From Bryoerythrophyllum caledonicum (lineage: Eukaryota > Streptophyta > Bryopsida > Pottiales > Pottiaceae), in assembly GCA_963971425.1 (NCBI GenBank), contig OZ020526.1, forward strand, positions 19,063,173 to 19,127,172: 64,000 bases of DNA, in the 5' to 3' direction. Made by a program: the position numbers and the translations under genes. The notes below the pieces were generated by a model. That model worked only from the letters and a program-made list of their open reading frames with translations. It was not told where the DNA came from and did no database searches. Positions 10,225 to 63,811 of the stretch are shown here, piece by piece (position 1 is the stretch's first letter; every line of letters begins with the position of its first letter).

Positions 10225-10282
10225 TCCGTGCGTGTGTGCGAGAGAGAGTGTGTGTGTGTGTGTGTGTGCGTGCGTGAGTGTG
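10225..10282. repeat. GT-rich microsatellite upstream of PRKRIP1
   Basis: A GA-rich stretch runs into a (GT)n tract with GC and GA interruptions. It lies about 170 bp upstream of the PRKRIP1 start codon, so it falls in the 5' untranslated region or promoter. Confidence 0.8.
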
Positions 10283-10385
10283 GTGTAAGCTATGGCGATG
10301 AGCATCTGCAAAGCTCTCTGTCTCTCTCACTCTCCTCGGAGTCGTCTCTCACGTTTGCTGTCAATTAGGGTTTCGTCATATAGCT

Positions 10386-13209: not shown

Positions 13210-18749
<5,540 letters not shown>

Positions 18750-20600: not shown

Positions 20601-21049
20601 TATGCATATGATTTCCAAAAAGATGGGTCCTAGTTGACCCACCAAGAATAGAGGGAATGATTGGAGTGCACCATTGTACCTTTAGAGCATAGAAGGACTA
20701 TCAATGGAGATGATAAGGACCATGGTCTGTATCCAAATGATAGAGAACAAGATAGATGTCTTTACTTATCTTTTACACATGGTAAAATAACAATTGTCCC
20801 TTTTACTTTTGTAAATACAAAGAGGAACTTCATTTTTTTTGGAATTTTTTTATAATGTAAAAGTAAAATTAAATTAAAAGTCATACATGATTTTACTTTC
20901 TATTTGGAAACTAAGTATATATAGACGTAGTAGTTAATGTTTACAACCACTTTTGTTATGTTGCAAAATATATTTATATTTTAATCTATTTGGTATATAA
21001 GGATTCATTTCTAAATCTAATAAGGTAAATATTTTTGCAATTAAAAACA

Positions 21050-28111: not shown

Positions 28112-28327
28112 ATAGTGTATAAGGAAAATACAAATGCTTATTCATTTTTCAAGTTTTTATGTATATACTTTGTGTAATATTGAAGTAGACTTCACTAGCA
28201 TTCCAACGCAATTTGAAATTCCAAAATCCGTCAATTTTTGAGCAAGTTATTGCATTCCAAAGTTTCCCAGTTTTTTCACTGTCCTGTACTGCGGCCAGAA
28301 TTCGTAAGCAAACTGTACCCCACTGTA

Positions 28328-31300
28328 CAGTAGGGTGACATTCAAATTGGCGTTTGGGCAATTCCAGGGATGGTGTCCCACACTGCTGCCAACTTTGACG
28401 CCCTCCACAGGGCTGAAAAATTGTTCTTTTACCCTGAAATTTTGGGAACAACATCACCTCTATGTTAAAAACATGCATACCAAATTTCAAGTCCAGAGGA
28501 CTTGTAAAACAAAAGATATTAAAAATTAACCACCATGGGGTAGCTGTGAGAAAAGTTTCTCAACCGCCAACTTTGACACCATCCCAAGGATTGAGGAAAT
28601 TTTTTTTGCCCATGGAATTTTTGGAGTGAGAACACCTTTATGTTGATTACATGTGTGGAAATTTTCAAGTCCAAAAAATGCACAAAAAAAATCACATCCC
28701 AAATCTACCAACATGTGTAATTGTGAGAAAAAAAGGGAAAAACCATTTTACTACTTCCAACTTTGACACCCTCCCTACGATTGAGGGTTTGTTATTTCAA
28801 CATGAAATTTTTGACACATGGTAACCTTTATGTTGAAAACATGTGGGAAAATTTTCAAGGCCAAAAAATGTATTCAAAAGAAGATATTCAAAATCTACTA
28901 ACATGGGGGTTAGTTGTGAGAAAAGTTTCACAGCTGCCCACTTTGACACCCTCCCAAGAATTCAAAAAAATTTATTTGTCCATGAAATTTTGGGTATGAA
29001 GTCACCTTCACGTCAAATACAAGTGTGGAAAATTTCAAAATCCAAAAGATTTACACAAAAAAACATATACCAAGTCTACCAACATGTATTGTTGTGACAA
29101 ACAAAGGGGAAAGTTTACCACTACTTCCAACTTCAACACCCTTCCTAGGATTGAGTTTTTGTTGATACATAATGAAATTTTGGCCACAAGATCATCTCTA
29201 TATTGGTAACATATGAGATAGATTTCAAAGCCAAAAGATGTATATACAAAAAAAATTTATTCCATATCTACCAACGTGTATGTCCTCCATTAGCATCAAT
29301 CACCGCTTGTAACCTTGAGGGCATAGAATGACATAGTTGAAGGAGCTTTGTACCACTAACCAAATTCCACTCTTTTTCAAGAACTACCTTCATCACTTCT
29401 AAGTTTCTAGGGCATTCCTTGCCATGTTGCACAACATCTTTTAGCATCCTCCAGACATCCTCAATTGGATTGAGATCGGGAGAGTTTGCAGGCCAATTGA
29501 GCTTTTCGAGTTGGTGGGTTTGTCTCCATTCTTCACATGTTTTGCTACGATGAACAGGTGCACCATCTTCCATCAGCACTCCTTTTGGAAGTCTACTCAA
29601 GAAATGAATCAATTCGCCATCGTAGACCACTTCAACAAAATCTTTAGCAGAACGTTGAGTTTTTGGCATAAAGACAAGTTGTGACTTTTGTCCTCCAGCA
29701 AATGCACCCCAAATCATCAAAGATGTCCGTCCACTTTTAAAAGTAGGAACTATACAACTTGATGAATAACGCTCATATGCACTTCTCCAAACATGAATTT
29801 GCCGAGAACTTTTTCCAATCTCAAAAGCAGATTCATCTGTCCAAACAATATGCTCCCACTCTTTTGGACTCCATCCATGGTACTTCTGAGCAAAAGCTAA
29901 CCGTTGAGACATGTGATGGGATGTCAAGAAAGGTTTTTTGACTGCAATTCGACTAAAAATACCACTTTTATGTAATATCCTTTGAATAGTACGTCTACAC
30001 ACTTGAGTACGGCACATATTAGTAATCTCTGAGACCGAGGAACGACGATGAGTTTTTGCATAACGCACAATATTATTCACATCTCTCTCACTAAGTTTTT
30101 TAGCGTGACTTCCACCGCAAGGTTTGCGCTTATAAGTTCCATCTTCTTTAAACGTTTTTACTAACCTCTGAATTGTTCTAACAGAAACTCCAGTAATGGC
30201 TGCAATTTGAACTCCTGTATTTCCTCCCTCACTCAAACCTGTAATGCGAGCACGGATTTCATCTGAAATTGCCATTATAGACTATTTTTTATGATGTTGA
30301 TACAATACTAAATGCTCTTCAATAAGTAATCAATATAACACTCAACCTATGGCAATTGGATTATATAATTCTGTAAACACAAAGGACTCAGCTTATGGCA
30401 TGTGCACTAAATAAATCAATCAACAACATAACACTCACATTGGCATGTACATTAGGTGATAACCATAGCATGTGCATTAGATGATAACCATGGCATGTGC
30501 ATCAATTGAGTGAACCAAAAAATACTCTTGGACATACTCATGCCACATGTGATTCGTCAACACTCAGTAAACTAGTCAACAACACTCAACAAAAAAAAAT
30601 ATATATCCACTCAATAAATCAGCCCATATGTGATATGCCCACTCAATGGATCAGCCCATATGTGATTTGTCTACTCAATCAGTCAACAACACTCAACCCA
30701 TATCTAATATGTCCACTCAATACCATCTCAACATTCACTCTCAATACCATCTCAACATTCACTCTATTACAAATCACATGACAAAATACACACAACATTT
30801 CCTTTACATAGTGCTCAACAGATATTTGGAGGAGAAAACTCGTCATACGTGCATAATGCACACCAAACCTTATGACAAGTGGATTCTTCTACACAAAACA
30901 ACTCTGCAATTCTACATGTAGATTTCATTGATCTTTTCAAGATGCATTTATGTTTGGTAGCTTAGTCACATGAATAAAATCAATGAAGAGTACGAGGTGT
31001 CAAAGATAATTTGACATTCTCAATATGCCCCTTCAATATAGTTTCTCATTGTTACAAACATTGGTAGATATGGAATAATTTTTTTTTGTATATACATCTT
31101 TTGGCTTTGAAATCTATCTCATATGTTACCAATATAGAGATGATCTTGTGGCCAAAATTTCATTATGTATCAACAAAAACTCAATCCTAGGAAGGGTGTT
31201 GAAGTTGGAAGTAGTGGTAAACTTTCCCCTTTGTTTGTCACAACAATACATGTTGGTAGACTTGGTATATGTTTTTTTGTGTAAATCTTTTGGATTTTGA

Positions 31301-32006
31301 AATTTTCCACACTTGTATTTGACGTGAAGGTGACTTCATACCCAAAATTTCATGGACAAATAAATTTTTTTGAATTCTTGGGAGGGTGTCAAAGTGGGCA
31401 GCTGTGAAACTTTTCTCACAACTAACCCCCATGTTAGTAGATTTTGAATATCTTCTTTTGAATACATTTTTTGGCCTTGAAAATTTTCCCACATGTTTTC
31501 AACATAAAGGTTACCATGTGTCAAAAATTTCATGTTGAAATAACAAACCCTTAATCGTAGGGAGGGTGTCAAAGTTGGAAGTAGTAAAATGGTTTTTCCC
31601 TTTTTTCTCACAATTACACATGTTGGTAGATTTGGGATGTGATTTTTTTTGTGCATTTTTTGGACTTGAAAATTTCCACACATGTAATCAACATAATGGT
31701 GTTCTCACTCCAAAAATTCCATGGGCAAAAAAAATTTCCTCAATCCTTGGGATGGTGTCAAAGTTGGCGGTTGAGAAACTTTTCTCACAGCTACCCCATG
31801 GTGGTTAATTTTTAATATCTTTTGTTTTATAAGTCCTCTGGACTTGAAATTTGATATACATGTTTTTAACACAGAGATGATGGTGTTCCCAAAATTTCAG
31901 GGTAAAAGAACAATTTTTCAGCCCTGTGGAGGGCGTCAAAGTTGGCAGCAGTGTGGGACACCATCCCTGGAATTGCCCAAACGCCAATTTGAATGTCACC
32001 CTACTA
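28328..32006 (-). mobile_element. Tc1/mariner element 2 with about 947-bp inverted repeats
   Basis: The 3679-bp element is flanked by TA (28326-28327 and 32007-32008). The left arm is 28328-29274 and the right arm 31061-32006, with very high identity by eye. Each arm contains five modules of about 180-190 bp. Each module carries a CCAACTTTGACNCCCTCC-like word (near 28387, 28565, 28757, 28936 and 29118 in the left arm), followed by ATGTTNAAAACATG and CTACCAACATG words. The single gene between the arms looks intact. Near-identical arms and an intact gene suggest recent activity. Confidence 0.92.
29268..30275 (-). CDS. Tc1/mariner transposase (DD34E), apparently intact
   Basis: The 335-residue protein starts at ATG 30275 (MAISDEIRARITGL). 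Residues about 5-45 and 80-104 form two helix-turn-helix segments (GVQIAAITGVSVRTIQRLV and SEITNMCRTQVCRRTIQRI), the paired-like DNA-binding region. The catalytic triad is Asp147 (WTDESAFE), Asp237 (MEDGAPVH) and Glu272 (SPDLNPIEDVW), 34 residues apart, so it belongs to the DD34E class. The protein ends GGHTRW and its stop codon lies inside the inner end of the left inverted repeat. It would cut and paste copies with ends starting CAGTAGGGTGACATTC at TA sites. It is of a type common in fungi and animals and unusual in plants. Confidence 0.93.
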   Translation of the reverse strand: MAISDEIRARITGLSEGGNTGVQIAAITGVSVRTIQRLVKTFKEDGTYKRKPCGGSHAKKLSERDVNNIVRYAKTHRRSSVSEITNMCRTQVCRRTIQRILHKSGIFSRIAVKKPFLTSHHMSQRLAFAQKYHGWSPKEWEHIVWTDESAFEIGKSSRQIHVWRSAYERYSSSCIVPTFKSGRTSLMIWGAFAGGQKSQLVFMPKTQRSAKDFVEVVYDGELIHFLSRLPKGVLMEDGAPVHRSKTCEEWRQTHQLEKLNWPANSPDLNPIEDVWRMLKDVVQHGKECPRNLEVMKVVLEKEWNLVSGTKLLQLCHSMPSRLQAVIDANGGHTRW

Positions 32007-32008
32007 TA

Positions 32009-32050
32009 CATCACCAATCTATTTCAACACCTAAAAACTGCACCTCACTA
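32009..32050. other. Short flank between element 2 and MITE copy B
   Basis: About 40 bp of host sequence. By position it would have been next to the C2-domain remnant before elements 1 and 2 inserted. Confidence 0.4.
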
Positions 32051-32958: not shown

Positions 32959-34602
32959 CAGTGACTCACAAAAGTTATGGGCCACCCTCTATGAACGTGA
33001 AAATTAGAAAATATCTTCTAAACTAATGAAAATTAATAGGTAAGATTAGTCATAGAGACCACATTTGCTGTGAGGAACATGTGGTTACAATTTTATAAAA
33101 AAAAAATTACATTGAAATGAGAAATTAAAAGAACTGTGCAACAACCATGGCCAAGAACTTTTGTTGATTTGATATGAAATCATGAAAACACAAACTAAAC
33201 TTGATCAAAGTGTATGCAATGAACTTGAAAGCTAGTAAATAGCGGTTGGTACATCATCTACAAGTCTACCAACGTGTGTATCCACCCTTAGCTGCATGAA
33301 GATCAACCACCCTTGTTGGCATTGTGCGAATGAGCTTCTCTATATATTCCACTTCAATGTTCTGCCAAACGACTTGGATCTTCTCCCACAAGTCATCTTT
33401 GCATGTTGGCAAAGCGCCAGACAACCTTAAGCGTCTATCTACTTCATTCCACAAGTGCTCGATGGGATTTAAATCAGGAGATTGTGGTGGCCACTCCTAC
33501 ACGGAAAAATCCTGCCTTTCCAACTATCGTTGCACAAGACCAGATGTGTGCTTTGGATTATTATCATGCTGGAAGATCACTTGTGCTTCATCAAGATCTT
33601 GTCTCCCAATGATATCCAGCAATTGCGAATCCAAAATGTCAAGATAAACTTGCAAATTTATGATGCCATCAATGTGGTAGAGATTTCCAACACCTGTCCA
33701 ACTCATGCATCCCCATACCATAATGCTACCACCACCATGTTTAACCATAGGCTGTTCATGACAATCACGAAGAGGCTCTGTAGGATTTTTCCAACACCAC
33801 TGACGGCCATCTGAACCAAAAACATTGAACTTTGATTCATCTGACCAAATGACATGGCTCCAATCTTCTACTTCACATTCCTTTGAAGCCTTTGCCCGTC
33901 GTAAACGCTTTTGTCTATGTTTTTTTGTCAACAATGGTTTCTTCTTCTTCACTCTAGATCCAAGCCCTTGCCGCCGGAAACATCGACGGACAGTCTCGTT
34001 ACACAAACGAAGACCCTGAGCTCGCAACTTTCGACCTACAACTACTGCATTTCCTGATTTTGGCTCATTCAACATCCTCACAGCAAGTCTCTCATCACGT
34101 ATGCTCAGAAGACGTGGTCTTCCTGATCGTGGACGGTCGTGCACCCGTCCATCTTCTTTGTATCGAGCTAGAATGCCCCCAACTATGCTACAAGGAACGT
34201 GAAGATGACCTGCTATGAAATGTTGAGAGAATCCTTGCTCACTCAAAGCTATAACTTGTGAACGCTTATAAAAACTAGTTTTCATCATCTTGACCACTCA
34301 AAGTTGTGAAGGCCTGCAACATATGACCTGTAAAAGCTCTCAAAGATCTCTATGCACATAGAAAACACAAGTGAAGCATGAAGCCACTGGAATCAATATA
34401 TGTAGTTGGCCACCTTCAAGATTCATTGAACCCCTCCTACAAAAATGCAACACTTGTATCACCCATAGGAAGCTAGTTGCTACTGCAGCACATGATGATG
34501 ATTCAGCATGCCAAATTTGGAGTGAAGATTCATCGTTCTGAATTTTCAGTTCCATGCCAAGTGGCTTCATGCTCACTCGCCAGGAACTTTTGTGAGTCAC
34601 TG
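32959..34602 (-). mobile_element. Tc1/mariner element 3
   Basis: The 1644-bp element is flanked by TA (32957-32958 and 34603-34604). The ends match CAGTGACTCACAAAAGTT, close to the canonical Tc1 terminus. Its transposase is more diverged from those of elements 1 and 2 than they are from each other. Confidence 0.92.
33266..34297 (-). pseudogene. Tc1 transposase of element 3, two nonsense codons
   Basis: The minus-strand frame runs from about 34285 (MVKMMKTSFYKRSQVIAL) to TAG at 33266-33268 (GGYTRW end). Two in-frame stops lie between 33524 and 33480, after SGLVQR and before EWPPQSPD. Helix-turn-helix segments are followed by a GRPR-type hook (RPRSGRPRLL). The catalytic residues are Asp in IWSDESKFN, Asp in FQHDNNPKHT and Glu in SPDLNPIEHLW. 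Counting through the stops, the second Asp and Glu are 34 residues apart. This is the classical Tc1/Sleeping Beauty-like group. Confidence 0.9.
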
Positions 34603-35726: not shown

Positions 35727-36609
35727 CCAAATCTCACATTAAACACCTCAGGAGCACTTAACTTCTCACAACCATCCTCTCCTGCCTCAATCTATCTCTT
35801 CCCAACCTTTGAATTTCATGTGAGGTAAGATGTTACTTCCCTGATTATTTGTAAAAAAGAGAATCATCAGAAATTTAAAGGGGATTGTTTGCAAAAACAA
35901 AAAAAATATGCCTCTAATATCTAATTATTTTGTATTACCAAAAAAATCATCTTTTGTGACACAAGACTTGTTACCGTACATGATTAACGCTGCTACAAGG
36001 CTTCACTCACTTCATGGTCCATGAATCACGACGGTAGGAGCCATGATTATGACCTATAATCTCCTCTCACATCATAACGTTCATGAGGAGGCCCAGGTTC
36101 TCTCGAGCCTGAAGTGCCGCAGTCCATATCCTTCCATAGCCATAGCCAGCAGCTCCAGATGAAGCTCAGACTGCCCTCACGTTGTGTGCAGCATCCTAAT
36201 ATATTTCGTCGAATGGATTATGATTCGTAACAGGGCGCCCTCTGTCGATGATCTCGACCATAATCTTAAACTTTCTCTCCGGCAAATTCTATGAGGTAAA
36301 CGTTGTTTTTTGTCAGTCATTCTGATCAGGTACACACCAAAGGTGACTGATCTCTGTTTGCAAATGTTCATATGAGATTGCTGCATCTCAAGGTTGATGC
36401 TTTTTGTGTTTTAATTAGCTAGTTATTATCCAGGAGATAAGATTATTATGTGCCATCAAACGCGACTAATCTTTGTGTGTGTTTATCTTGCAGCTGGATT
36501 ATTGCACCTGCTGCTTGGATTTGCATCCCGGGTGACATTGCATAGGTCATGTAAGGTGAATACTTGTTCGTAAAGAGTGAGGATTGCAGCAGCTTGGGTT
36601 GAAAGAGCG
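35727..36609. other. Upstream region of the HSPA12-like gene
   Basis: Presumed promoter and 5' untranslated region. No clear coding region, and I did not find a heat-shock element cluster that I would defend. Confidence 0.4.
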
Positions 36610-38769
36610 ATGGCATGCGATCCAAGCACATCCCGAGCGCTAGTGACAGTGGGGTTGGATTTCGGCACAACGTTCAGCGGGTACGCGTACTGCCACAAAG
36701 ACATCGACCCCGAGAAGGTCTTCATGTTCTACGAATGGCCGCAGCAAGCGAGCGGCGGCGGCCAACCCTACTGCAAGACGCAGACGTCCCTCTTCTACGG
36801 TTCGGATGAGGCAGGCCAACTTCGCTACCAGAGCTTCGGGTGGCCGGCGTCGGTGGACTTCAACAAAGCGAACGCCGGACACTTGCTGAAGAGGTTCAAG
36901 CTCAACCTGGCACCCAATCACAAGAGCGCCGCACCTCCTCTCCCACCAGGGCTCACCGCGGAGATCGTCATCACAGACTACCTCCGCGAGATCTCCGTCT
37001 CCATCATGCGTGAGCTTCGGAACCGGTACGGTGAGCAGATGAGTATGAGAGGGGTGAAGTGGTGCTTGACAGTGCCCGCGCTCTGGGACGACGGCGCCAA
37101 GCAGCTCATGAAAGAATACGCAGAGAAAGCCGGCCTGGTGGCGACGAAGAATTCATCTCATGGGAGTCCGCATCCGCTGGAGATTGTGCTGGAGCCCGAT
37201 GCGGCCGCGGTGTACTGCTTGAGCAAGAGCATGAAGCATCTCGGGAAAGTCACAGCCGACGATATCTTCCTGACCGTCGACATCGGTGGCGGAACGGTCG
37301 ACATCGTGGTGCACCAGAAAATCTCGAGTGGAAACAAGCATCAGGTACCCACCTCATGAGAATGTGTTGTTGCAGTTGATCAGGCACCTAAACAATTCAA
37401 CGTGGTTTCAGCGAGGTGTGTCTTGCATTTGGATGAGGTGACAATGAGTTTTTTGCAGTTGAAGGAGGTGATTCCGAGCACGGGTGGCGTGTGTGGCGGC
37501 GCGGACGTGGACGACAACTTCCTGACGCACCTGGGGACACGCATCGGCTGCCTGCGAGCGTTTCTAGACCAGAATCCGCTCCTGGAGCTGTCCATACGGC
37601 GCTGGTGGGGCGAGATTAAGAGCACGTTCGACGGGGCGACGTCCGCGACGTACCTCGTGCCGGCGCGGCTCTACAAGGCATGGGCGCATCACGACCGCCG
37701 CCACGCCTCGGACGAGGTGGAGATCACGGCGTCCGAGCTCCGGGACCGCGTGTTCGACCTGGTGGTGGATAAGATCGTCGCGCTGATCGCCGGCGCGATC
37801 GCCAAAGTGAAGCGGCCCGTGACGGCGATCATGGTCGTCGGCGGGTTCGCCGCGTCGCCGTACCTCATGGCGCGCCTGCGCACCGCGTTCCCTGGTGAGT
37901 CCATCGTGAGTCCGCCGGACCCCGGCAGCGCGGTGTGCCAAGGCGCGGCGATGGTGGGCTCCCACCTCGGCCACACGATCGTGTCGCGCGTGATGCGGAA
38001 GACGTACGGCGTGAAGATGACGAGAGAGTTCCTGCGCGGTGATCCGCAGCGGCTGCGGTTCAAGGACGAGGAGGGAGCGCCGCTCTGTGCGAGCGCGTTC
38101 CAGCCGTTCATAAGAGCCGGCGAGTCCGTTCTGGTGGACGCCCCCGTGACCATGGAGGACCTCTCGCCCTGCAACAAATCGGACCGCGAGATGCAGATCG
38201 TACTGTTCAGCACGTCGCGCAAGAACAGCGTGAAGTACACCACGCATCCCAGCGTGAGAGAGGAGTCCAAGTTTGTGCTGGACATCTCCAAGGGGATGCA
38301 CGTCGCGGACCGCAAGGTGAAGCTGACCATGTTCTTCGGCGGGACGCGGATCCGGATGGAGGCGTCCGGTGTGAACTTCGAGGCCGAAGGCGCGGTGGAG
38401 CTCGATATCGACCCGTCGGCGTTCTGGGAGTCTCCTGGAGTCGATCAAGGTTGCCGTCCTGAGCAGACCACTCACAAACGTCAAAGATCATCACATCATG
38501 TAACATACTAGTCTCCTTTCAGATCCATGCTCGACGTGTAATTTGACAAGAGATGTTACTGAAATCGCTTTCTTAATTTGCAGGTCAAGCTGAAGCCTGA
38601 GGATCAGGATAATGGACAGCCGAGCGTGGCAGCTTTCACGAGGGCGAAGTGCAGACCCACATTGCCTCTGGCTGATCAAAAAAATGTGGACATAGCTGAC
38701 CGTCCAGCTTCAGGTGAAGATCTGACTAAACTTGGAGCTCCCACAAAACTAAAACTGGAAAGCCGGTGA
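36610..38769 (+). CDS. HSPA12-like Hsp70 family ATPase
   Basis: HSPA12 proteins are divergent Hsp70 relatives with the actin/Hsp70 ATPase fold. The start is ATG at 36610 (MACDPSTSRALVTVGLDFG). Exon 1 is 36610-37344 and exon 2 starts at 37459. Motifs are phosphate-1 GLDFGTTFSGYAY at residues 15-27, phosphate-2 TVDIGGGTVDIVV at about 222-234, the subfamily word GGVCGGADVDDNF, and the adenosine motif MVVGGFAASPYL at about 370-381. The 3' end is uncertain. A donor after 38439 joins in frame to an exon 38584-38769 (VKLKPEDQDNGQPS, ending TKLKLESR). The donor after 38449 would stop at 38600, and read-through stops at 38511. The total is about 570-635 residues. The gene is GC-rich and converges with the kinase genes. 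Confidence 0.88.
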
Positions 38770-38985: not shown

Positions 38986-40310
38986 TCAATGTACTTCTTC
39001 CTTGTACTTGAGGCTCCACAGTTCTTTCCGGATTTCTTCAAAGGAAGATGTAATCGTGTGGTATTTGGGGCTCACGAGAATGTTGTCCGGGGACAGCCTT
39101 CGGTGCAGCACTCCGCGCTCGTGCAGACAGATCATGGCCTCCGCGATCTGGAGCAGTATGTCGATGGCGACAAGGAGCGGGAACGGAGGCGTGTACACGC
39201 GAGAGTTGCGCTCGATCAGGCGCTGCAGGTCGTCCTGCATGGCCTCCATGAAAACCAGCATCTCGTCTCGGCTGTGCGCATACCCGATCAAGTGCACCAC
39301 ATTGGGATGCTGCACCCTCGCCAGCGTCTCCACTTCAGTGCACAGCCGCGCACGGGATCTCGTGCTCCTGATCGAGGTCGACTTCGTCACCACAGCCGCG
39401 TCGCCAAACATCCACAACTGCCCCAACCGCGTTGTACTACCACTGTTGCTGCGAAGCCCCCGGTCAAGTACTTTTCCATCACCACCCAGTTCATCGCAGG
39501 TCAAAATAGGGTCTATCCAGTAAGAAACTTCATGCGACCCAAAATCAAGTGAATTCGACTGCAGGCTCAACCTCTTCTTCAGAAACGGTGCAATGTCCTC
39601 AAAGAGCGGCGAATCTCCAGATTTCTCTTCATTGAGGCGTGCAAGTAAATTTCTGCGGTCCTGTGCCAATCTATCAGCATCCGCTTCCGGGGCGTCAAAT
39701 TCTAGGAACTCATGACCCTTGAGTTCACAGTCAGTATCGAATGATCTTCTCACCAGAGTGAGCCTGCATCTGGCCTTGCACCACTGCATCCGCAGATTGC
39801 TGGATGTGACGAGAAGCTGAGGGCTTGTCTTGGGCCGGCGCGACTCGGCGACGTCCATGACGTGATGGATCACGTACAGGTTCCAGTGTAGCTCCCACAA
39901 GCGACGTCCAAACCAGGAACTGTAACACGATGTGCAAGAACTCGGAGCTTGGGGTGCGGTGATTGCGAGGGCCGCCATTCTCCAGTTACCGCCCCTGCAA
40001 CAGCTCCGCAGGAGCTCCTGAGCAGCGAACGTGGAGCACATGAGCCTGTCCAAAGGGCCGATGAACCGCTGCAGCTTGCACGACCGGAACAGCTAGCAAA
40101 TCGCAGGGCGAAATGCGCTCGTACAGGGACTTCACCTTCCGCACGCCCTCTGAATATTCTCGCACCAGGTAGTCGCACTACACATGGCAGACCTCGACTT
40201 CTAGCAGAGTAATCCGCTCTTTCATGGCGGTGCATATGTCGTGTGCCGTCTCCAGGCTGTGCGAAATGATCTCCGTGGTAGCCCCAAACCGCAACTTCTC
40301 CTGAAAAACG
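38986..40310 (-). pseudogene. MLKL-like helical domain plus pseudokinase, damaged
   Basis: Read on the minus strand, an N-terminal helical region starts near 40310 (EKLRFGATTEIISHSLETAH, MKERITLLEVEVCHV). It meets TAG at 40180-40178 and a frame change near 40090. It resumes as FAAQELLRSCCRGGNWRMAA and runs on through a kinase-like part. The kinase half has VVTK, EVETLARVQHPNVVHLIGYA, LLQIAEAMICLHERG, and HRRLSPDNIL where active kinases have HRDL. The catalytic Asp is therefore Arg, and no glycine loop or DFG is found. The coding sequence ends at a GTGAGC donor-like site near 39075 and I found no further exon. The helical part resembles the HeLo-like domain of plant MLKL proteins, which drive membrane-linked cell death. 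That assignment is inference. Confidence 0.55.
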
Positions 40311-40324
40311 AGCAATATGATAGA

Positions 40325-41320
40325 TCACAGAAACTTTTCTTCAAGTTGGACACGAAACAGGTACTGAATTCCCTGGGCAATCTGCAGCATCATGTCTACC
40401 GCCGCATCGATCGTGAACGGCATGGCACTGCTCTTTTGACGCTCTTGTCCTGCATTTTCGATGTAATCTAGCAGGCTCATCGGCATGAGCTCCATCACGA
40501 GGGAGGTGTGGGGATGCGCGGAGTCATCGTCGCAGTAGGACAGCAGCTTCACGATGCGGGGGTGGTTGAGCGCGACTATGGCGCCGACCTCCTTCAGAAA
40601 CCCCGCCTGTGGCACTCCCTTGGTGAACTCCTTCTGGGCGCACCTCAGCCCCAGCCACTCCACTTCCGACACCACCACGCCAATGGCACCGGATCCGATG
40701 CTCTTCACAACGTGATGCTTCCGGCTCACCCTGTAAAAACCCGGAAGTGCATGGTGGTCGTGATGAAGTGGTTTGCTCGACAGTACCACCCTGCTTTCCT
40801 CGCGCTTCCGGAGATAATCAGTCAAGAGTCTCTCCGTCTCCGACATAGCCTGGTCATCGGCTTCATTAAGCCTCACCATCAAATGCTGGGCATCCGCTCG
40901 GAAGTCCTCGTCCGCGACGTCATCCCGGACGGCGATGCTGAGAAAACTCGACAGCCTGCGTATTCCAGAGGCTGGGGACAGAGCCTCGGTAAGTTTGTGA
41001 AACGATTCCACACAGAGCTGGAGCTGCAGGGAGAGCTCCTGGAACGCCTGCCGGTTGTCGCCGTAGAAGATGGCGGCCTCCAGCCAGGACTCCTCACAGC
41101 TGCACTTACGCAGAATTGCATCTGCTCGGAGCACAATAATATAGAACTCTTTGTAGAGAGGGAAGTATCTCTGTTCGAAGCTGGCAACACTGCCCGGTTC
41201 GAAGACGCGGTGGTACACGGCGCTGAGGCTCTGCCACAGACGCGTGCACTGCACCTTGTTCAGAAGTGGCGAGTCTGCGGAGTTCAGGATCAAATTCCGA
41301 GGAAACAGATGTAGCTGCAA
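40325..41320 (-). pseudogene. MLKL-like helical domain plus N-lobe of a kinase, truncated
   Basis: The open frame encodes about 330 residues. It begins with a helical region (YKEFYIIVLRADAILRKCS, ESWLEAAIFYGDN, LQLCVESFHKLTEAL) whose Cys-Trp pattern is like plant MLKL/HeLo domains. It continues into a kinase N-lobe: glycine loop IGSGAIGVVVSEVEW, a Lys in CAQKEF, VALNHPRIVKLLSYC, and the hinge LVMELMPMSLLDYI. It stops within helix E (QIAQGIQYL), with no HRD or DFG, and the next gene's helical domain follows within about 20 bp. The first codon is not ATG, so a 5' exon is missing or the copy is dead. Loss of the C-lobe by recombination between tandem copies is the simplest reading. Confidence 0.55.
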
Positions 41321-41399
41321 AACTTGAACATGGTACCTGATAAGTGCGCCCGTCGGTAGGACAAGTTCGCACGTCTGTCCATGACCGCCGAAACATCAC

Positions 41400-42283
41400 C
41401 CGTGTTTCACGATGGTTTCAAGCTAGAATCGCTGCCTATTGCCAAGATATCGAACCTGGTGGCAAGGTGCTCCCTCGTCAAGAATTCAGCTTCCAGAGCA
41501 TCAGGACCCTTTGACTTTCAGGCTGAAAAACCGTGGACATTTTCGGAAAATCAGTCCGACGTACTGATGAACATGTTCATCTAACAAACGAACCTGTTTC
41601 CCATGACAAGCATGTACCTCATGTAAAGGTTTCAAAAGTAGGTTTCGCATGTGGTTTGTAGGTTGGAAAAGGTTTGGGCTTTGTGAAAAAAAAACATTGT
41701 TGTAGGCGACTTTTGAGGCAATAGATGAGGCAATTAGACCCTGCGCGAGTGCTCACACACCATAACTGAATAGCCACCATGTTCCAGAAGGAATGCTGGA
41801 CCAGAAGATTATTCTTAACTTCTGAACTTTATATAGTTGTAGATTAATCTTGAGTTGAAGTGGCCTAGTAAACCGTCGAAGGGTCTCGGTTCCTGAAAGA
41901 GAATTCAGAGCATCATGAAATCAGGAGTACTAACAGGCGGCTTACAGATAACCTGCCGTGAGACAACCCCTGTGGTCCTTAAACTTAACTAGTTATCACA
42001 AATAAACACGGCATATCGTGCAAACGTGTTGAAGGCAACAAAATCACTAGAAATAAGAGCACAAGGAGTCCATACATGTAAGTCCAGATATACTCAAGCT
42101 GTTCTCATAATTTGAAACCCCTCACAGGATGGCAAGCACAAGGCAATCATTGAGAAGCCCAACTCCCTGCCATTCACTAAAACTGATCCTGCTGCGCAAT
42201 GGTACAGCCCTCATACTTCATCTCTAACAGTGAAGATGGTGTCCCAAAGAAAGACCTTCATCCCGATCACACGTTAGGTGCGT
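41400..42283. other. Spacer upstream of kinases and downstream of RPS27 copy 1
   Basis: On the minus strand, 41490-41400 has a short protein-like stretch (DALEAEFLTREHLATRFDIL) that may be a lost 5' exon of the kinase gene. Homology to the second RPS27 segment starts near 42044. Otherwise nothing is seen. Confidence 0.35.
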
Positions 42284-43186
<903 letters not shown>

Positions 43187-46844: not shown

Positions 46845-47086
46845 ATCACTAGAAATAAGAGCACAAGGAGTCCATACATGTAAGTCCAGATATACTCAAG
46901 CTGTTCTCATAATTTGAAACCCCTCACAGGATGGCAAGCACGGAGGCAATCATTGAGACGCCCGAGTCCCTGCCATTCACTAAAACTGATCCTGCTGCGC
47001 AATGGTACAGCCCTCATACTTCATCCCTATCAGTGAAGCTGGTGTCCCAAAGATAGAGCTTCATCCCGATCACACGTTAGGTGCGT

Positions 47087-47939
<853 letters not shown>

Positions 47940-50118: not shown

Positions 50119-51561
50119 CTAGTTAGAATCTGAATCAGTATCAGAATGGACACTAGGATTGTATTCACGAAGTTTGGCTTCCCACAGGCTTGTAGCCAAA
50201 ACTTCATGCATGTTTATTGCTTCCCGAAGCAAATTTGTGGCCTTCTCATCTTCTGCAATCAAAAAAACTTCATTTTCTTCATCAAATACATCTTCAACTA
50301 CTGAATTTTGTCTACATTGAATTCTGCTCCTCACTTCTTCAATTGCAGCTCGTGCACCACGCACTTTTGATCCTTCCCTAGCTTCGCCATTTGCAATTTT
50401 TTGGGCCAATTAACTCTCTGCTTCTTCAATCCAGGTTTTGTCAAAAGCATCCTTCATAGTAATGCACAAATTGTGCAATACTATACAAGTACAAACTACA
50501 TCAGGAACCATATGTAAAGGAATATCGCATTGTTTCATTATGATTCTCCACCTCCCTTTCAATATGCCGAATGCTCGTTCAATACACATTCGTGTTGAAG
50601 ACTGGATAAAATTCCAGTTTGCACGACATCGAGATAGTCCATCTTTTTGCCTTTTGAATGGGCAGTACATCCACGGCCTAACCGGGTAGGCTGCATCACC
50701 GATCAATTTATATGGCATATATTTTCCTTCCATGAATGCTTTCTCTACTTTTGTCACTTGAAAAACAGACCAATCGTGAAGACTACCAGCCCACCCGAAT
50801 TCAAAATCCCAAAACTTGCAATTCACGTCAACAATTTCCTGTAAAATTGCTGAATGGAATGATTTCCAATAGTAGTAATCTTCCCCGCCAATTACATGAG
50901 CTAAAACAGGAATATGTGAACCATCATTTGCACCCACTATGTAAGGAATTCCATGTAAGGCTTCGAATTGAGATGCCAAAACTCTAAACTGCGATTCACT
51001 AGGAAATTGGACTAAAACCCTTAATAAGTGTTTTCTAACAACCTTACAAAATTCCCTTACTATGCAAGAAGCTGTACATTCAGCAATTCCATATACCTTT
51101 CGTACAAGCAACAACCCATTTCAGTATCCAATCTGCACAAAAAAATCGCAATCCTAGTTTCAACAGAAATAGCAGCCCTCATACGTGTATCCTTTTTTTT
51201 TCAGAAATGGATCCAATTTTTCACAAAGAAATCTGAATGTACCATGGCTAATCCGAGTTCTTTGCTTAAACATCTTCTCTGTGAAAGAACTCAACAAGAA
51301 ACGATCCGTAAATCCAACTTGTCGTGCATGACTCCAAATACTACGCTCCTTACGTCCCATGCTCTCCCACAAAATGCTGAAAATGGCAAATTTCTCCCAT
51401 TCTCCTTGCAAAATCAGAGATTGCATATTTACAACATGTTGTACTACCATATACAAGCACATATACAATCTCAACGCCAATACAAGGTCCCTCTTCCTCT
51501 CCTCCATTACAACCCTACTTGCTGAAATTCCAGTACAAGGTGAGAAGATGAGTGAAAACAA
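50119..51561 (-). pseudogene. PIF/Harbinger DDE transposase, damaged
   Basis: The nuclease of the element shows its DDE residues in GANDGSHIPV (Asp), LIGDAAYPVRP (Asp) and RMCIERAFGILKGRW (Glu) within 51114-50410. The N-terminal part is at 51561-51160 (RTRISHGTFRFLCEKLDPFL). The frame is lost near an A-rich tract at about 51195 and again near 51120. TAA at 50412-50410 separates a further 96-residue open tail (LAQKIANGEAREGS) in the same frame. The tail is acidic and may be part of the original C-terminus. Confidence 0.85.
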
Positions 51562-54640: not shown

Positions 54641-55386
54641 CAATTTTTCAGCCCTCAGGAAGGTGCCAAAGTTGGCAGCAGTGTGGCGTGGAAACGTACA
54701 AAATCAAAAAAGTATGTATACTTGTGTGAGGGTACTGTACAAGGAAATAATATCATACTTTACATGATGGTAGTAAATTAAAACCTTTAACACGCAATTA
54801 AGCAATTATGCACTTAGCCAAGTGCACTGGTTGGTGGTAGAAAGCCGCAAGTTATTTGCTCATAACTTTTTTTTAAATCAAAATTTGGCAAAATTTTAGT
54901 ATGTTTTTTGTCAAAAAATTTTGGTGTTTGTCGTATCATACATTGGCATCTTTATGTTCATATCAGTAATATATTTTTTACATTCGCTACCTTTTTTTAG
55001 AAAATATATGATTTCTACTGTAGTTTGCAAATCCTGCTACAAAATTATGATCATGTGCCTAAAGAGATTATAAATGTGTTATGAGTTATTATAGGATTTT
55101 AGAGTACTGCACTACAAACACAATGTGTAAGAGATACAAAAATATATATGCAAATTCCTAAGACAGTGTAAAGTACCTCACTGTATTTTATAATGCAAAA
55201 ACATACATAATCAAGCAATTCCACACTATTGCTGAGGAATTCTAAAATCAAACATATCATATGGACCACCCAATACATAAATATATACCACCAACCGAAC
55301 GATAGACACATCTCAAACTGCATAATACTAACGTACTTGCCACCTAAACTGCGTGCATGCTCTACTATAGTATATCGCTCCACGGC

Positions 55387-58300
55387 TCACAGCTCATCTG
55401 CTGGCGGGACGACTCCCTCCACGTGTCCAATGGCGCTACCTACCATAGCGGATAGTTCATGATCCTCCACTGGACGATCTCCGACATCTTCGATGCCAAT
55501 GGACGCACACTCAACAAATCGGTAATTGCTAGGAACACCCTCCCACGTATGCCTTACCCTGTCATCATTATAGAAAAAGCCATCCTTTGCATTGAAGGAC
55601 ATCTCTCGCTCTGATGAGAAGGCCCCCTGAAATGCAATGATGTCCTCGGATACGCTAGATCTTGGAACGGGAGGCAAACCTGGTCCGATATCACTCTGAG
55701 TACCTCCGAACGTCTCTTGTGTCTCCGATACAGGCTCTGATTGAGAAGGCATCGAAGGCTGTCGAATCCTCCTCTACACCGAAAAAAATTCACATGAATC
55801 CAATCCTTCTTCCTCCATCTCCAACCTAGGACCATCAAATGTACGCCCCCGTCCTGCCCCTGCCGCCAAACTAACATCACTACACCTGTATCTTGCATCC
55901 TCTCTGTAGGTGTTGCAGACGTCGCCCCTGAAGTATCTCCCACCGTCCGCTGCGTTGATGGAATTCTCTCTCCATCCTCATCGGCGTCTGAATCACTGCC
56001 AGATGAGAAATCTTCAGTGGTACCTGAACGTGGCAATCTCTCATGTAAACCACCTCCATCCTCATTGTCCTCTTCATTCCTCACTCCACCAACAGCATCT
56101 TCGGTCTCAGGTACGATGTTGCAACCAGTACTTGTTCCACCAGTCCTGACCAACAGTTGTCCTTGGAAATTGTCGGACAACTCATTGTACAGGAATGAAA
56201 CTCTGTCTGTACAATCGTCATTGATGAAAACCTCAGATCCCTGGAAATCTCCTTCAAGGATCGTGGGAATGGCCGTAGATATGTTACACGCCACTAAACC
56301 CAAACCACGGGGCAAGTATGAGCCCACTAGTCTTGCAAGCTCTGATGGAGATCTCCCAAGTGAATCAACTTCAGAGGGTTGGCGTGCCTCAGTCCAGTGA
56401 TCCAAGAATACAAGTGGAAGTGGAACGTCTCCAGAAACATAGTTCGGGCCAGGAGATGTACTCACAGGGTGCTGCATACAAATCACAACATCGCCAATCG
56501 GTTGTACTACTTGCTCCAGACGCCCATTCTCTGTAAAATCAAGAGCATAGGGATTAACCGAGTTGGGATCAAAAGCCCAACATCCACGTCGCATAGTACA
56601 TCCCTCTGGAAGCTTCACCTTTGTGAAAAACTCCTCATTGGCATACACAGCCGCTGGTAACAAGAAGATGACGTTCCATCGTTCAATATTTGCCATCCAT
56701 AATGTCAGCTGTGCAAAAGCTGCGGATAACTGGGCGTCTCCCCAATGACCATCTCCATGCCTCCCACCGCCACGTCGACAATCAATCACCCACAAACATG
56801 GTTTTCCCAACTCTATGTAGTCGGTGCGGAATAATCCTCTTCTACACCGAACCGGAAGAAGATTCTCTGTGTCGCTCTACCCTGGCTTCTTGACTTACAT
56901 CTGCCATTCCCAATTAGCAGTAGCCAATTCTCCCACATCCACGGACATTCCAATGTATCCACGTCCCCCTGCTGCAATGTCACCATAATGAAACCTGATG
57001 GAATGGGGGATGAGGTAGCCTATGTCTTCCAGTTTAGACACCTTCCCCTGCACAGGAGCACTCCAAGCTTTTTTCGTGGCAGCATTCAAAAGCTTCCCTA
57101 AGGTATCAAGTTGTGCACTACTCCTCGGAAAATACTTCGCTACACGCATACGAAAGAACTCCTCCATAGAATCAGGTGTACTTTCCTTGTTCTCCACCAT
57201 CAACCAACGGATCGAATTCATCACAACTTCTCGTCTCTGATATCGGTCAACCACACCGGCAATCGTACGAGGATGTGAATTCTTGTCTTTTACACCGTCA
57301 AAGTAATATGCTTGAGAAGGTCTTACTCCATCCCCCCTCACCGGCTTCGCTGCAGCAGACTTTGCCAACCGAAGATAATATGGATTCGGAACCCTACTTA
57401 GAGGCCTCAACCAATTCTGCGTCATCTCCTTTCTTGTTGGTCGTACGTCCACATTTGGATCCAGCTCTTTCTTCCTCGCCATGTCCTTCCACTTGTCCTC
57501 TTCCTCCTTGTTGTAAAAGAGAATGTCGTCTTCGTAGTCCTTGCATACTTGAATGATAACTTCGAAGCAGTCATTGCTCGGATTCCATGCATGATTGGTC
57601 AGATCCTCCATGTTTTTGGCCAATTTCTTCACCGTGACATCTCCATCCCCCTGAGGCAACTTATGCACTGCACTTGCCGCACTCACCAAAGCAACAGCCC
57701 TACGTGCATCGTCCGCACGTAGTGTGCTATCAGGCCTCCCGTATAGATCCCAAATCTGACGGATCTTCCTCAAATCCTCCTCTATGGTAGAATATGAATG
57801 TCTCTGGAACTCCGCCACGTTGATCCGCACAGACTTCTCAATGTAAAAGCGACGATCATCATACACCACAAAAGAGGCCTCCCGCCGCTCAAACGTGTCC
57901 AGATACTCGTTTAAAGGCATAGTACTGCTGCTGTGCAAACTGTCCACTGCTGCTGTGCAAACTTACAAGCTGCTACTATGTGTTGCCCATCCACCGGTTC
58001 CCAAATGATATGATCTTGAAGCCAAGAATATTGGGATCCCATCGCACCCTGTGCAGAAGCACTCCCGTGTGCAATGAACATGCGCTCAAACTCTCGTGCG
58101 GTACCTACCAACGAAAATGGCAGCTCTTCCTACTCAACGACACCATCATCGGTGGTAGTATGCACGATGTATCTGATCGGTCGATGTACCAATCTACTCA
58201 CCCGAGTCGCGGATTCTGGGTCTTGTAAACGGTTGAATACTTCTATGACCCTCTTCTGTGATAAAACTCGGTGGTTGGTTTCCGGATTCTCTACAGAGAC

Positions 58301-59392
58301 AATGCGGTCCATGTGTGCCTTAAACACAAAATTCCCCCACACTGATCCTTTCGCAATCTCCTCTATTGTAGGCACTGGTGCTTTTAAATTCATAGGAGTT
58401 GGAACATCCTGTGGTATCTCCGCATTGTCTTCAAAATCCTCTAGTATATTGTCTGGAAGGTTGTGAAAATCTTCTTCCTCCGGCGCCATGGCTGACAAAT
58501 CAGCTGAATCTCCTGGTGTAGATGTAGGGGCCCTATGATGACCATCAGGCGTCCTGAGCCCCGACCTAGGAACCCTGCCACCCGATCTAGGAACCCTGCC
58601 ACCCGATCTTGCACTTCTCCCATTTAACCTCCTCCCATTTGGATCCAAACTTGATGGGCCTTCTCTTGAACCAGAAGCTACATCATTGTCAACACGCCGT
58701 GGCCTCTTCGTAGGACGTCTACTCGTTAATGGAGGATTCGGTAATGTTTGTACCTTAGAAGTTGTGGTGGGATGTTGGCCTCCACTTTCCCTCGCCCCCT
58801 CTAGTGGTCGCTAATCCAGTTGCAACGGCTCAGCAAGAATTCGATAAACTTCTGATTCTTTTGGTTCCGCTGGTGGGGCTTGAGTTGTCGCACGTGATGG
58901 GTCCCTCTGCCGAAATGCTTCATATCTAATATGTTCCTCCATAATCTTCTTAGCCTTCAGCACCATCTCCGGTGATAACGCTAAATAGGCTAAGACGTTG
59001 TTGTGTCTAGCAGTACGTACCGCAAGACAGATGTTCAACCAAAACGTCTGCAATGATTTGAGGAATTTCACCTAACCTGGATTTTGAAGAAGATTCAAAG
59101 GGACAGGTGCAAGAAGCAACTTTTTTGAAAGAGAAGTCTTTACTTCCGATTGACCTGGACCCACTACACAAGTAACGTATACCATATCATCACGTCGAAG
59201 AGTGATTGCCTGGATTTTGCCAAAACTTTTCCCCAACGCCGATGTACGCTTCCCAAGCTCAAAGGGATAATCCGTCACCCATATGAAGGCGCTTGACTCA
59301 TCTACTTCCGCGATCCACCAGCCGTGGCTCTCCCAAATTCTATCAATATTTGGTGGTGCCATAACGCAACACTCAAAAAAACTGTATATCAT
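55387..59392 (-). pseudogene. Long coding region of the 9-kb element, with ParB-like and methyltransferase-like parts
   Basis: Several open stretches in minus orientation run one after another and appear to be one gene, broken at several places. The first begins MAPPNIDRIWESHGWWIAEV. A Pro/Arg-rich linker follows near 58.7-58.5 kb. The stretch at 58111-57911 has HIIWEPVDGQHIVAACKFA, whose DGQH word is like that of ParB/DndB-type folds. The stretch 57947-56895 is mostly helical and charged. The stretch from 56810 has LWVIDCRRGGGRHGDGHWGD, LVACNISTAIPTIL and GSEVFINDDCTDRVSFL, whose order could be that of an N4/N6 DNA methyltransferase. The acidic end has no known match. All domain names here are guesses from short motifs. 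Confidence 0.4.
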
Positions 59393-59419
59393 TACAAAAC
59401 GATAGTCACTATTAGTATG

Positions 59420-60450
59420 GAATAAGAATTTTTTTGAACATGCAACACCCCTTGTCTACCTCTAAAAACTTTTGCACTACAGAAGATTTAATTCCAACAC
59501 CATTGTGTTAAGTATGTTGTTAGTTCTTTGGTGAAATAGCATATTAATCCAAGTCAATTATTTTCATACATTGTCACACATTTTCGGCCAAGGTACCAAA
59601 AAAACTTCTACCTTTCCACAAAAATCTTTGAGATCTTCGTATGATTCATTTTTTATTTTTCCTACGGCATTATGTGATGTAAATCTTCTTATTGACCATT
59701 TGGATTCTCATTTAAAACAATATCGAGTTCACAAAAAAATATAACTTGAATTGCGAATTTTTTGAATTTGCTACACCCCTTGTCTACCTCTAAAAACATT
59801 TGCACTACACAAGATCTAAATCCAATACCATCGTGTTAAGCATGTTGTTAGTTCTTTGGTGAAATAGCATATTAATCCAAGTCAATTATTTTCACACATT
59901 GTCACACATTTTTGGCCACCGTACTCAAAAAACTTCTACCTTTCTACATAAATCTTTGAGATCTTCGTATGATTCACTTTTGATTTTTCCTACGGCATTA
60001 TGTAATGTAAACCTTCGTATTGACCATTTGGATTCTCATTTCAAACGATATCAAGTTCACAAAAAAACATAACGTGAATTGAGAATTTTTGAACCCCCAC
60101 TCATTGCACATTTTTTTTTAATATGCTACACCCCTTTTCTAACTCTAAAAATTGGTATATACCAAATTAACATCATGCTTAACATTATGGTAATTAATTG
60201 AGACCTTTTATAGTGCAAAAATGTGACACCAATTGAAATCAAAGTCTGCTGATCCAGAAAACGCAGGGAAGAAAATGAGCCTTTTCTTTACTTTAAACAT
60301 TATAATCTTTCAATCCGTGCAGTAAAACTTTATGAAATTTTTATAGTGTATAACTTAATAAGTCATTATTGAGATCCTACGGTTCAAAGTACCAAAAAAA
60401 ACTTCATTTTTCTTCCATGCTAATTGCACTAAAACTAGCATTTTTAACGA
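59420..60450. repeat. Dispersed AT-rich repeat in tandem
   Basis: Two to three similar blocks (starting near 59430, 59750 and 60090) share CTACACCCCTT-like and CCTTTCNACATAAATCTTTG words with 16000-16950, 45560-46080 and 53090-53420. No coding region. Confidence 0.55.
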
Positions 60451-60670
60451 TTTTTGGTTGAGATATTCTCCACATCATTTATGGACCAAGGAACTCGGGG
60501 TATCAATATCAAGGGTATCACCACCAGGGTATGACCTACTGTGCACCGTAACCGGTTTTCAACTTAGGGTTTGAGTCAGGGTATCAACTTAGGGTTTTGA
60601 GTTTGGGTTTCGGAAGTTAGGGTATCAACAACGGATATCAATCCATCGCACTTTGGGTAGTCCTAGGAGG

Positions 60671-60688
60671 GGTGTGCGCGCGCACACC
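60671..60688. other. 18-bp alternating purine-pyrimidine palindrome
   Basis: GGTGTGCGCGCGCACACC is a perfect palindrome with a CG-alternating centre, able in principle to form Z-DNA or a hairpin. A close relative GTATGCGCGCGCACAC is at about 61124. Confidence 0.7.
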
Positions 60689-61221
60689 TCTCGTAGAAGT
60701 TGTGAGGGGAGGCTGTGAGTGTGAGAGAGAGGGTTTGGAGGAGAGAGAGGCTTGTGGGATTGTGAGAGAGGAAGTTGTGAGGGCGGAGAGTGAGGAGAGA
60801 AGAGTTGTGAGGGAGAGAGGAATGGAGTGGAGGTGTGAGGGTAGCCGCAAGAGAGTAGCAGCAACATTGTGGAGGTAGAGTAGCCTGCGGAAGCTTCGCC
60901 TCGCCGCGCCTGCGGGCGGCTGCGCGCAGCGATGGATGTCGCGTCTGTGACGCAGCTAGGGCTGCCTGGGTCGCAGCGAGGGCTTGGTTTCTTGGTTCAA
61001 AAATCCTAAATCTTAAAGGTAACCCTTAACTCAGAAAGCTCATCCTCACCATCGTCAAGAGGTGGCACGCGACGGGAAGGCCAGGTCGTTTTTGGATTGA
61101 TGGAGGAGCACCAGCAGTTGGGGGTATGCGCGCGCACACCCCCAGTCTACGGTTACTCCATGAGGTGTCGTGCGAACTCCATGGGAACGGAGGCTACTAG
61201 AGTTGCGGCAGCTAGAGTTTT

Positions 61222-61382
61222 GGGGCGGCGGCTAGGTCTTGGCTGTGGCGGCTAGGGTTTGGTTGTGGCGGCTAGGGTTTAGGTGTGGCGGCTAGGGTTT
61301 GGGTGTGGCGGCTAGGGTTTGGGTGTGGCGGCTAGGGTTTGGATGTGGCGGCTAGGATTTGGGTGTGGTAGCTAGGGTTTAA
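61222..61382. repeat. 20-bp minisatellite with a telomere-like core
   Basis: About eight copies of GGTGTGGCGGCTAGGGTTT with single substitutions. Each copy contains TAGGGTTT, the core of the plant telomere repeat, but the repeat unit is not telomeric. It lies between the two coding regions of the 9-kb element. Confidence 0.93.
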
Positions 61383-62501
61383 GGTACTGCGTTGTGCCAT
61401 ACTGAGGATTTAGTGCCATACTGATAGCTACTCTCTTGACTTCAATTCTGTGTGGTTTTGGTGTAATAATTTCAGCTGATCGAAGGTTGAACTCACGAGT
61501 TGTTGACTGCTACATGTATATTCATTCAACTTTGTTGAATTTGCAATTTTGTACGTACTCAAGTTGGTGTCCTCATTTGTGTACTCACCTAACACTATCG
61601 TAGTTCTAACTGAACTTCAATCACCATGAACCTAACCCTGGAGTTCCCTCATATTCAAAATTGAAACAAACTCAAAAGCTTACCAAATTTGCTAAAATCA
61701 CCTCAATGTGCAAATTTTCTCCAATCTATATAGTACACAAAGTTGACAGGAATTAGTGAATGCAGTAAAAATCACATGGCCTAGAGGTTTTGATTTGAAG
61801 AGAGCTCACCTTAGAAACTGGGAAGAGAAATGACCTCTAGATTTGCATAGAAACCTTACATCCATGTTGGATCCTTGTGCCTCAAGTTTACTAGTCAAAA
61901 TTTGACTTTTGAACTTTGGACTTTTTGCTTTGTTTCTCCTTATGTTCCCACTTTTTACATATAATATTAAAATTTCGGGCTCTATGTAATATGAAGATAC
62001 TTAGTTTTTATCACATAGTTTATCATATAAATTTTATGCATGTATTGCAGGTAAAGTGGGAAGGGTTGAAAAACATGTTCAACAACGACGGAATGGTGTT
62101 TTAATGTTAAACGACATCAAGTATCAGTGGGTGTACTGCTAACACCTGCAACGTATCTTGAGGTAAATATTTATTTCTATACAATTTTAAGATTGATTGT
62201 TGATTGATCTTCTATACTATGTTGTTTGTAGAATAACCTTTATGTGGTTGTGCAAACTCTTTCTTTCATTAGCAATTGTAACAAGTTTCAATGGTGTCAA
62301 TAATAGCAAGTAGACAACATGGTTCATTTTCTTCCCTAGGTTCAGTGGATTCCCTTCGTTTCAGTTCACTTGGATTCAAAAGATTGCATCACACATGATC
62401 TAGATTCATTATCATCATGTCAGAAATGATATAAGTTCCATTTTACACCAATGTTTAGGGATGCAGAAGACATTTAGCATATTTAACCCCTAAAGGATCA
62501 A

Positions 62502-63235
62502 GTGTCAAAAATTGGCTTTTTGAATCGTGCATCTTTGGATGTAATGGATGGTGCAAGTGAAGAAAATCGCGAGGTAAATGTCGTAGAGCAGGTAGTGGCC
62601 ATGCTTCCAAATGCCGAGGCTCAAGGATACTTTGGGCTTCGTAGAGGAAGACCCTCTAATCAAGCAGTGCGTAGGGCACAACAAACAGAGCGCAACTATG
62701 TTGAGGAACGCGCCGAAGAAGGAACAGTGTATGAAGGTAATCACGACCCATTTCCACCATTTAATCCACAATCTGATATCCGTTGTGGACAGTTTGTAGC
62801 CTTGAGTGTTGATCAAGCAGAGATAGAAGGCGGTGTACCATTCTATGTAGGGAAAGTGATTGAGGAAGGAAAAAATCAATGGAGACTTAAGATTAAGGTT
62901 TGTTGGTATTGGCCCATCATCCAAAGGGGGGTTGGTGATGGACATGGGTCTTTTGCACAACGGTATGCAAATTGCATGGACTCAATCTGGGAGCCTTCTG
63001 GAGAGAGCCATAGTTGGGTAGAGAAGATGCATGCATTTTTTCATGGATAGACTCTCCGGAAAGAACCATGTCAGGGGCCAGCGGGTGGAGAAAGAGCAAT
63101 GTATTTGGAGTGCAGGTTGAAAGCAGGATTCGCATTCTTCAATCGGCAAAGGCTCATATACTACAATATATTGCAATGCAAACTGAAGCTATCGATGACG
63201 ACCGTTTGCAAGCAGCCTTAAATTCTATGGAGTAG
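62502..63235 (+). CDS. Second coding region of the 9-kb element, unrecognised
   Basis: The open frame to 63050 holds MDGASEENREVNVVEQ (ATG near 62541) and a basic stretch GLRRGRPSNQAVRRAQ. A conserved-looking block follows: CGQFVALSVDQAEIEGGVPF, YVGKVIEEG, KVCWYWP and MDSIWEPSGESHSWVEK. A small beta-rich reader-type domain (BAH or Tudor-like) is possible but I cannot show it. Another frame from 63047 to 63235 (WRKSNVFGVQVESRIRILQS to LNSME) looks like the continuation, so there is a splice or a frame change near 63050. Short upstream exons may lie at about 62051-62161 after a TTGCAG acceptor. I do not recognise the family. Confidence 0.45.
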
Positions 63236-63811
63236 ATAGTGTGCCTTTTTGAGAGTATAGTAGTTGTGTATGGTAATTGATATATAGAGTATGTGTAAGA
63301 GTAGTATATGCTAAGGGTGATTTAAGACATTATGTCATTAACCCTTTAGAGTAAAGTTGTGTTTAATATTGGTGCTAAGTCCAATTGTAGAAGCATCTAT
63401 ATAACGTTTCCACCATTGTATACATTATGTTCTACGTAGAATATCTTTTCATCAACTGCCAACCGTTGCATAAAGTATGTTTTTTTGAAATTACGCCTGT
63501 TTGTATACTACAATCCTTCAAATCTATCTTTGAAATATTGTGAAACTATATTAAATACACATTTATCTAGTATTAACGAGGGGCCACCACAAATTAGTTG
63601 AAAATGCCAAAAAATCGCTTCCAATATGAACAACCATGATTGTACGTAATATTGTTGCAGAAGCTCAATTTTTTTTCCTTTGGAAAACATTTTTTTAAAT
63701 TTTTTTTTTTTGAATTTTTGAATTTTGCCACTTTTGTTTGCAATGGCCGCCGTTGTACCCAAGTGCACTTTTAAATGGCCAAGTGCATAATTGCTTAATT
63801 GCGTGTTCTTT

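Follow-up and report, generated by a model that had tools for sequence, protein, structure and literature searches.

A deleted copy of a two-gene transposon in the moss Bryoerythrophyllum caledonicum and a likely transposase role for DUF7869

We analysed 64,000 nucleotides of the genome of the moss Bryoerythrophyllum caledonicum (GCA_963971425.1, contig OZ020526.1, positions 19,063,173 to 19,127,172 of the forward strand), a stretch called here the window and numbered from its first base. The element at 54789-63807 (9,019 bp) is an internally deleted, non-autonomous derivative of an abundant DNA transposon with terminal inverted repeats (TIRs) and two genes. The best explanation of the evidence as a whole is, very probably, that the parent transposon has a DDD transposase encoded by one open reading frame (ORF B) and an accessory protein encoded by the other (ORF A), and that it falls within or adjoins the Sola superfamily. 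A preliminary description of the window had singled the element out as a possible undescribed mobile system. That status is not established, as the 4-bp duplications, the aspartate-type triad and the occurrence in a moss are in keeping with the Sola superfamily as published.

The window copy is bounded by a left TIR (54789-54820, plus strand), which starts AACACGCAATTAAGCAATTATGCACTT, and a right TIR (63776-63807, minus strand). The two are complementary at 31 of 32 bases (97%), and the first 27 bases are exact at both ends. With up to three mismatches allowed, the window holds no third site for this 27-base end, and none occurred in 100 shuffles of the window. A target site duplication (TSD), CTTT, can be read directly from the letters at 54785-54788 and 63808-63811; most of the other copies tested have a 4-bp duplication of their own. 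Thus the inverted ends of about 32 bp, 9 kb apart, and the flanking CTTT given in the preliminary description are both borne out. It had also seen two coding regions pointing apart. The opposite orientation is correct, but both regions are only remnants. With an intact ORF A as query, tblastn places this ORF at 55390-59434 on the minus strand, broken into three reading frames with stops and 92-96% identical to the 1,344-aa ORF of an intact copy. All that tblastn recovers of ORF B (62499-63232, plus strand) is a stretch in two frames that corresponds to residues 832-1076 of the DUF7869 protein, which has 1,076 aa when intact. About 830 N-terminal codons have been lost between the spacer and the remnant, and with them the DUF7869 domain itself (residues 544-726 in a Pfam search of the intact protein). 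The non-coding spacer (59435-62498) contains a direct repeat of 300 bp (59430-59729 and 59758-60057) and a tandem array with a 20-bp unit (61181-61400). A Pfam search of the window copy gave three matches below the cut-off and no transposase among them. The lack of a known transposase was therefore rightly noted for this copy, because only the last ~245 residues of ORF B remain; it does not extend to the family, whose intact copies carry DUF7869, read here as a transposase domain.

The 27-bp end occurs at 1,660 sites in the 437-Mb genome when up to one mismatch is allowed (815 forward and 845 reverse), and its reversed control at none. Pairing of the ends was analysed in the first 100 listed of these sites, all on contigs C1 and C2. 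Twenty-six neighbour pairs less than 25 kb apart face each other, compared with a mean of 7.3 and a maximum of 16 when strands are shuffled; neighbours in other orientations form three pairs. The facing pairs span 2.2-7.1 kb (11), 9.9-14.4 kb (13) or longer distances (2), and the two size groups fit short deleted copies alongside full ones. We also fetched 20 copies from the 40 best left-end matches, with preference for those with long open ORF A frames. Across these and the window copy, the inner 120 bp of the left boundary are 98.8% identical on average, while the outer 60 bp average 28.5% (maximum 45%), so that homology ends at the element boundary. Apart from the window itself, matches to the ends of the window copy are 96-100% identical on the left and 90-98% on the right.

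Duplications were scored in 25 copies of the main family, namely the window copy, L025, ten full copies, three flank pairs and ten short pairs. An exact 4-bp duplication flanks 19 of the 25, with a chance expectation of ~0.005 per copy; of the other six, four agree at three of four bases, a fifth has a repeat of 5 bp and the sixth lacks a repeat. In 18 of the 19 exact copies a C or T immediately precedes the duplication, and in 16 the second base following it is T. AY precedes the duplication in ten of the 19, RT follows in 13 and both are present in five, against a background of ~0.14 per dinucleotide class. The target preference is thus loosely palindromic, AY-NNNN-RT. One insertion (L034/L035) interrupts the repeat TTTACCATTGTGTTGAGCATGATG with CATT on both flanks; CATT is present once at a site of this type when it is empty and twice when it is filled. 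The 24-bp TTTACCATTGTGTTGAGCATGATG is found whole at 16335 in the window and, with up to two mismatches, at 2,669 sites in the genome. A variant with four mismatches lies within the spacer of the element itself, at 60171. Of the checks that the preliminary description had suggested, the further paired ends, duplications proper to most of the copies and an empty site were found, the last in a paralogous repeat of the same genome, and the boundaries are sharp; all of this favours a mobile TIR element with a 4-bp TSD. That the two ends are a product of chance, or parts of two unrelated repeats, is practically ruled out by the occurrence of paired copies that have duplications of their own, the genome count and the sharp boundaries, and we found nothing in support of it.

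Ten full copies measure 12,651-13,923 bp (12.65-13.92 kb). Nine of these were completed as their ORF B was already known to be open, and the tenth (C9) through a right-end match. They share one layout: ORF A is encoded by the minus strand, close to the left end, and a spacer that differs in length among copies separates it from ORF B, which is on the plus strand and stops ~0.6 kb short of the right end of the element. ORF A is a single open frame of 1,341-1,371 aa in six of the ten and ORF B one of 1,066-1,077 aa in nine; a frame of at least 1,341 aa for ORF A is present in nine of the 20 fetched copies. Because copies were picked for open frames, these counts are not genome-wide fractions. 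Among pairs with dS above 0.02 (31 of 36 in ORF B, 13 of 15 in ORF A), the ratio of non-synonymous to synonymous divergence (dN/dS, as summed dN over summed dS) is 0.23 in ORF B and 0.31 in ORF A. The pairs lack independence, come from copies chosen for open frames and have no pseudogene control. Both ORFs look to be under purifying selection, and ORF A, given its ratio, is probably not debris. Within some copies, the two ORFs seem to differ in history. Between copies C6a and C7, dS is 0.031 in ORF A and 0.112 in ORF B; between C7 and C4 it is 0.023 and 0.0145. Such differences, seen in C6a, C7, C4 and C14b, suggest that halves have been swapped among copies.

Intact ORF B matches DUF7869 with an E-value of 1.9e-50 and 171.5 bits, against a curated cut-off of 26. 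This is its only match in Pfam, and none is to a named transposase family; NCBIfam gave no family and PHROGs a single match (E 0.3). Five aspartates (D522, D525, D604, D644 and D646) are invariant in all 16 aligned copies, nine from the main family and seven others. The third catalytic acid is probably an aspartate, since the glutamate of GHTHED is replaced by serine in one copy. The predicted secondary structure has the order of an RNase H fold. A Foldseek search with a low-confidence fold model placed the Mos1 transposase first (E 4e-3), followed mostly by Argonautes and terminase nucleases. Because DUF7869 has invariant aspartates in an RNase H-like order, ORF B is likely to be the transposase of the family. 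For ORF A, we found no domain and no relative in the PDB, and its structure model was not usable. The roles might be reversed, with ORF A as the transposase and ORF B as the accessory protein. ORF A is the longer of the two, its dN/dS is low as well, and it adjoins the left end, which is the better conserved in matches to the window copy (96-100% identity, compared with 90-98% on the right). It is ORF B, however, that has the invariant acids and a predicted secondary structure ordered as in RNase H; ORF A has no domain or PDB relative, and a second-lineage element that has ORF B gave no match to ORF A in its first 4 kb; we consider the reversal improbable.

This second lineage is represented by L051-type copies, in which the core of ORF B is 62% identical to that of the main family. 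Its end is AACATGGAATTCGCTAAATATGCACTTGGCCA, the first 29 bases of which occur at 66 + 72 sites in the genome with up to two mismatches (control 0), and its TIRs are ~180-200 bp long. Exact 4-bp duplications flank seven of ten second-lineage pairs; one other agrees at three of four bases and two are palindromes. Long palindromes are formed by the second-lineage end pairs L099/L100 (C3:28589690-28601110) and L101/L102 (C7:2638751-2654750), in which identity to the inverted opposite end is 99.8-100% over 501 bp, of which 300 bp are flank beyond the element. They are either inverted duplications or fold-backs in the assembly. The element without a match to ORF A lies at C3:18225463-18242778; the search covered the first 4 kb inside its left end, the position of ORF A in the main family. 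Common to both lineages are the AAC tip and, further in, TGCACTTGGCCA, of which the main-family left end has a one-base variant. From this conservation, TGCACTTGGCCA is a candidate binding site for the transposase.

Several known superfamilies were compared with the element. Kolobok and piggyBac transposons duplicate TTAA, which is seen in none of the 26 exact duplications. PIF/Harbinger and Tc1/mariner have Pfam transposase domains of their own, and duplicate 3 bp and TA, respectively; here the TSD is 4 bp and ORF B matches DUF7869 only. IS481EU elements share with ours a 4-bp TSD in some families, and have a single gene for a DDD/E transposase, termini of TNT..AYA or TGT..ACA, and TSDs also of ~15 and 25 bp (PMC10045372). 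They are set aside on account of the AAC..GTT termini, the two genes and the absence of longer duplications in our element: none of at least 12 bp at 80% was found in 35 copies, all testable to 17 bp and 15 of them to 27 bp. Dada elements are likewise large, at 4.7-11 kb, and one example has a DDE transposase of ~1,400 aa, but they insert into small RNA genes with a 6-7 bp TSD and have a DDE triad with a DxxH motif (PMC3706591). The 4-bp TSD at differing sites and the probable DDD triad set our element apart from them.

Sola transposons come closest. They are described as having a DDD transposase, a 4-bp TSD and TIRs of 11-1124 bp, mostly with a size of 2-9 kb and in some cases more than 15 kb, and are reported from the moss Physcomitrella and also from bacteria (PMC10741241). 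A Physcomitrella Sola1 is listed (PMC9033089), and the TSD of Sola2 is given as 4 bp and AT-rich (PMC3627910). Our element resembles them in its 4-bp duplications in both lineages, in TIRs of a length within the Sola range (32 bp in the window copy), in a full size within that published for Sola, and in its occurrence in a moss. In ORF B, all 16 aligned copies have invariant aspartates in the order expected of a DDD transposase, and the fold model is of low confidence. The second ORF, of ~1,340 aa, may set our element apart from Sola. By comparison of published features, the element probably works like a Sola-type DDD transposon and lies in or adjoining that superfamily.

Alternatively, the DUF7869 elements could be a DDD superfamily of their own, with a two-protein system, separate from Sola and all other named superfamilies. 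Pointing in this direction are the database results for ORF B (DUF7869 alone in Pfam, no NCBIfam family and the single PHROGs match) and the fact that the term DUF7869 occurs in none of 5.39 million papers searched. The pattern GHTHxD[IV]DQxF also retrieved no relative from viral and prokaryotic collections, in scans that accepted one motif and covered prokaryotes once, whereas Sola is reported from bacteria as well (PMC10741241). Against a separate superfamily, the scans have that narrow scope, and little can be concluded from the missing match to a named Pfam family, as Pfam may have no model named for Sola. The TSD length, the aspartates, the size and the moss occurrence are those published for Sola. 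We regard a separate superfamily as unlikely, though still to be reckoned with. The fuller version, in which such a superfamily would require both the DUF7869 transposase and ORF A, a type of helper that other DDE systems are not known to have, appears slightly less likely again.

In the mechanism that we favour, ORF B would act as a DDD transposase whose core resembles RNase H, its catalytic residues being D522, D604 and either D644 or D646 of P0003. It would bind the element ends, perhaps at TGCACTTGGCCA, excise the element and insert it at an AT-rich site cut with a 4-bp stagger, in a cut-and-paste manner. ORF A would assist as an accessory protein encoded by the transposon itself, and deleted copies, among them the one in the window, may be mobilised in trans.

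Other mobile sequences are present in the window. A Tc1-like element at 28324-32010 has very long inverted repeats (28324-29277 and 31058-32010, nearly 1 kb each and 97-99% complementary). Between them, on the minus strand, an ORF for a Tc1/mariner-type transposase (29268-30281) matches the Pfam domains HTH_Tnp_Tc3_2 and DDE_3. Another Tc1/mariner-like fragment, at 33524-34297, matches HTH_Tnp_Tc3_2 as well. A direct repeat of ~1 kb (42141-43148 and 46944-47901), with pieces 96% identical and 4.75-4.8 kb apart, may be a long terminal repeat element or a local duplication. The transposase at 50410-51120 (Pfam DDE_Tnp_4, E 8e-24) is Harbinger-like. ORFs resembling host genes (DUF1168, PLATZ, HSP70-like and protein kinase) are found at 9020-10326, 21029-21790, 36574-38511 and 38986-41395, and another, at 40325-41395, is kinase-like in appearance. 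A long GA/CT microsatellite (14180-14650) gives rise to spurious long Arg-Glu or Ser-Leu ORFs on both strands.

The element in the window is a genuine transposon copy of an ordinary kind, and its interest lies in the likely function of DUF7869 and in ORF A. DUF7869 is filed in Pfam as a domain of unknown function, and the family points to a likely function as a transposase. The domain is abundant in this genome, at 150 places above the cut-off from 3,610 first-look candidates. ORFs of this kind should be masked as transposon genes in genome annotation and not tallied as host genes. The family also brings to light a partner protein of ~1,340 aa in which no domain is recognised, and, as a defined element with intact copies, it offers material on which the function of DUF7869 could be tested.
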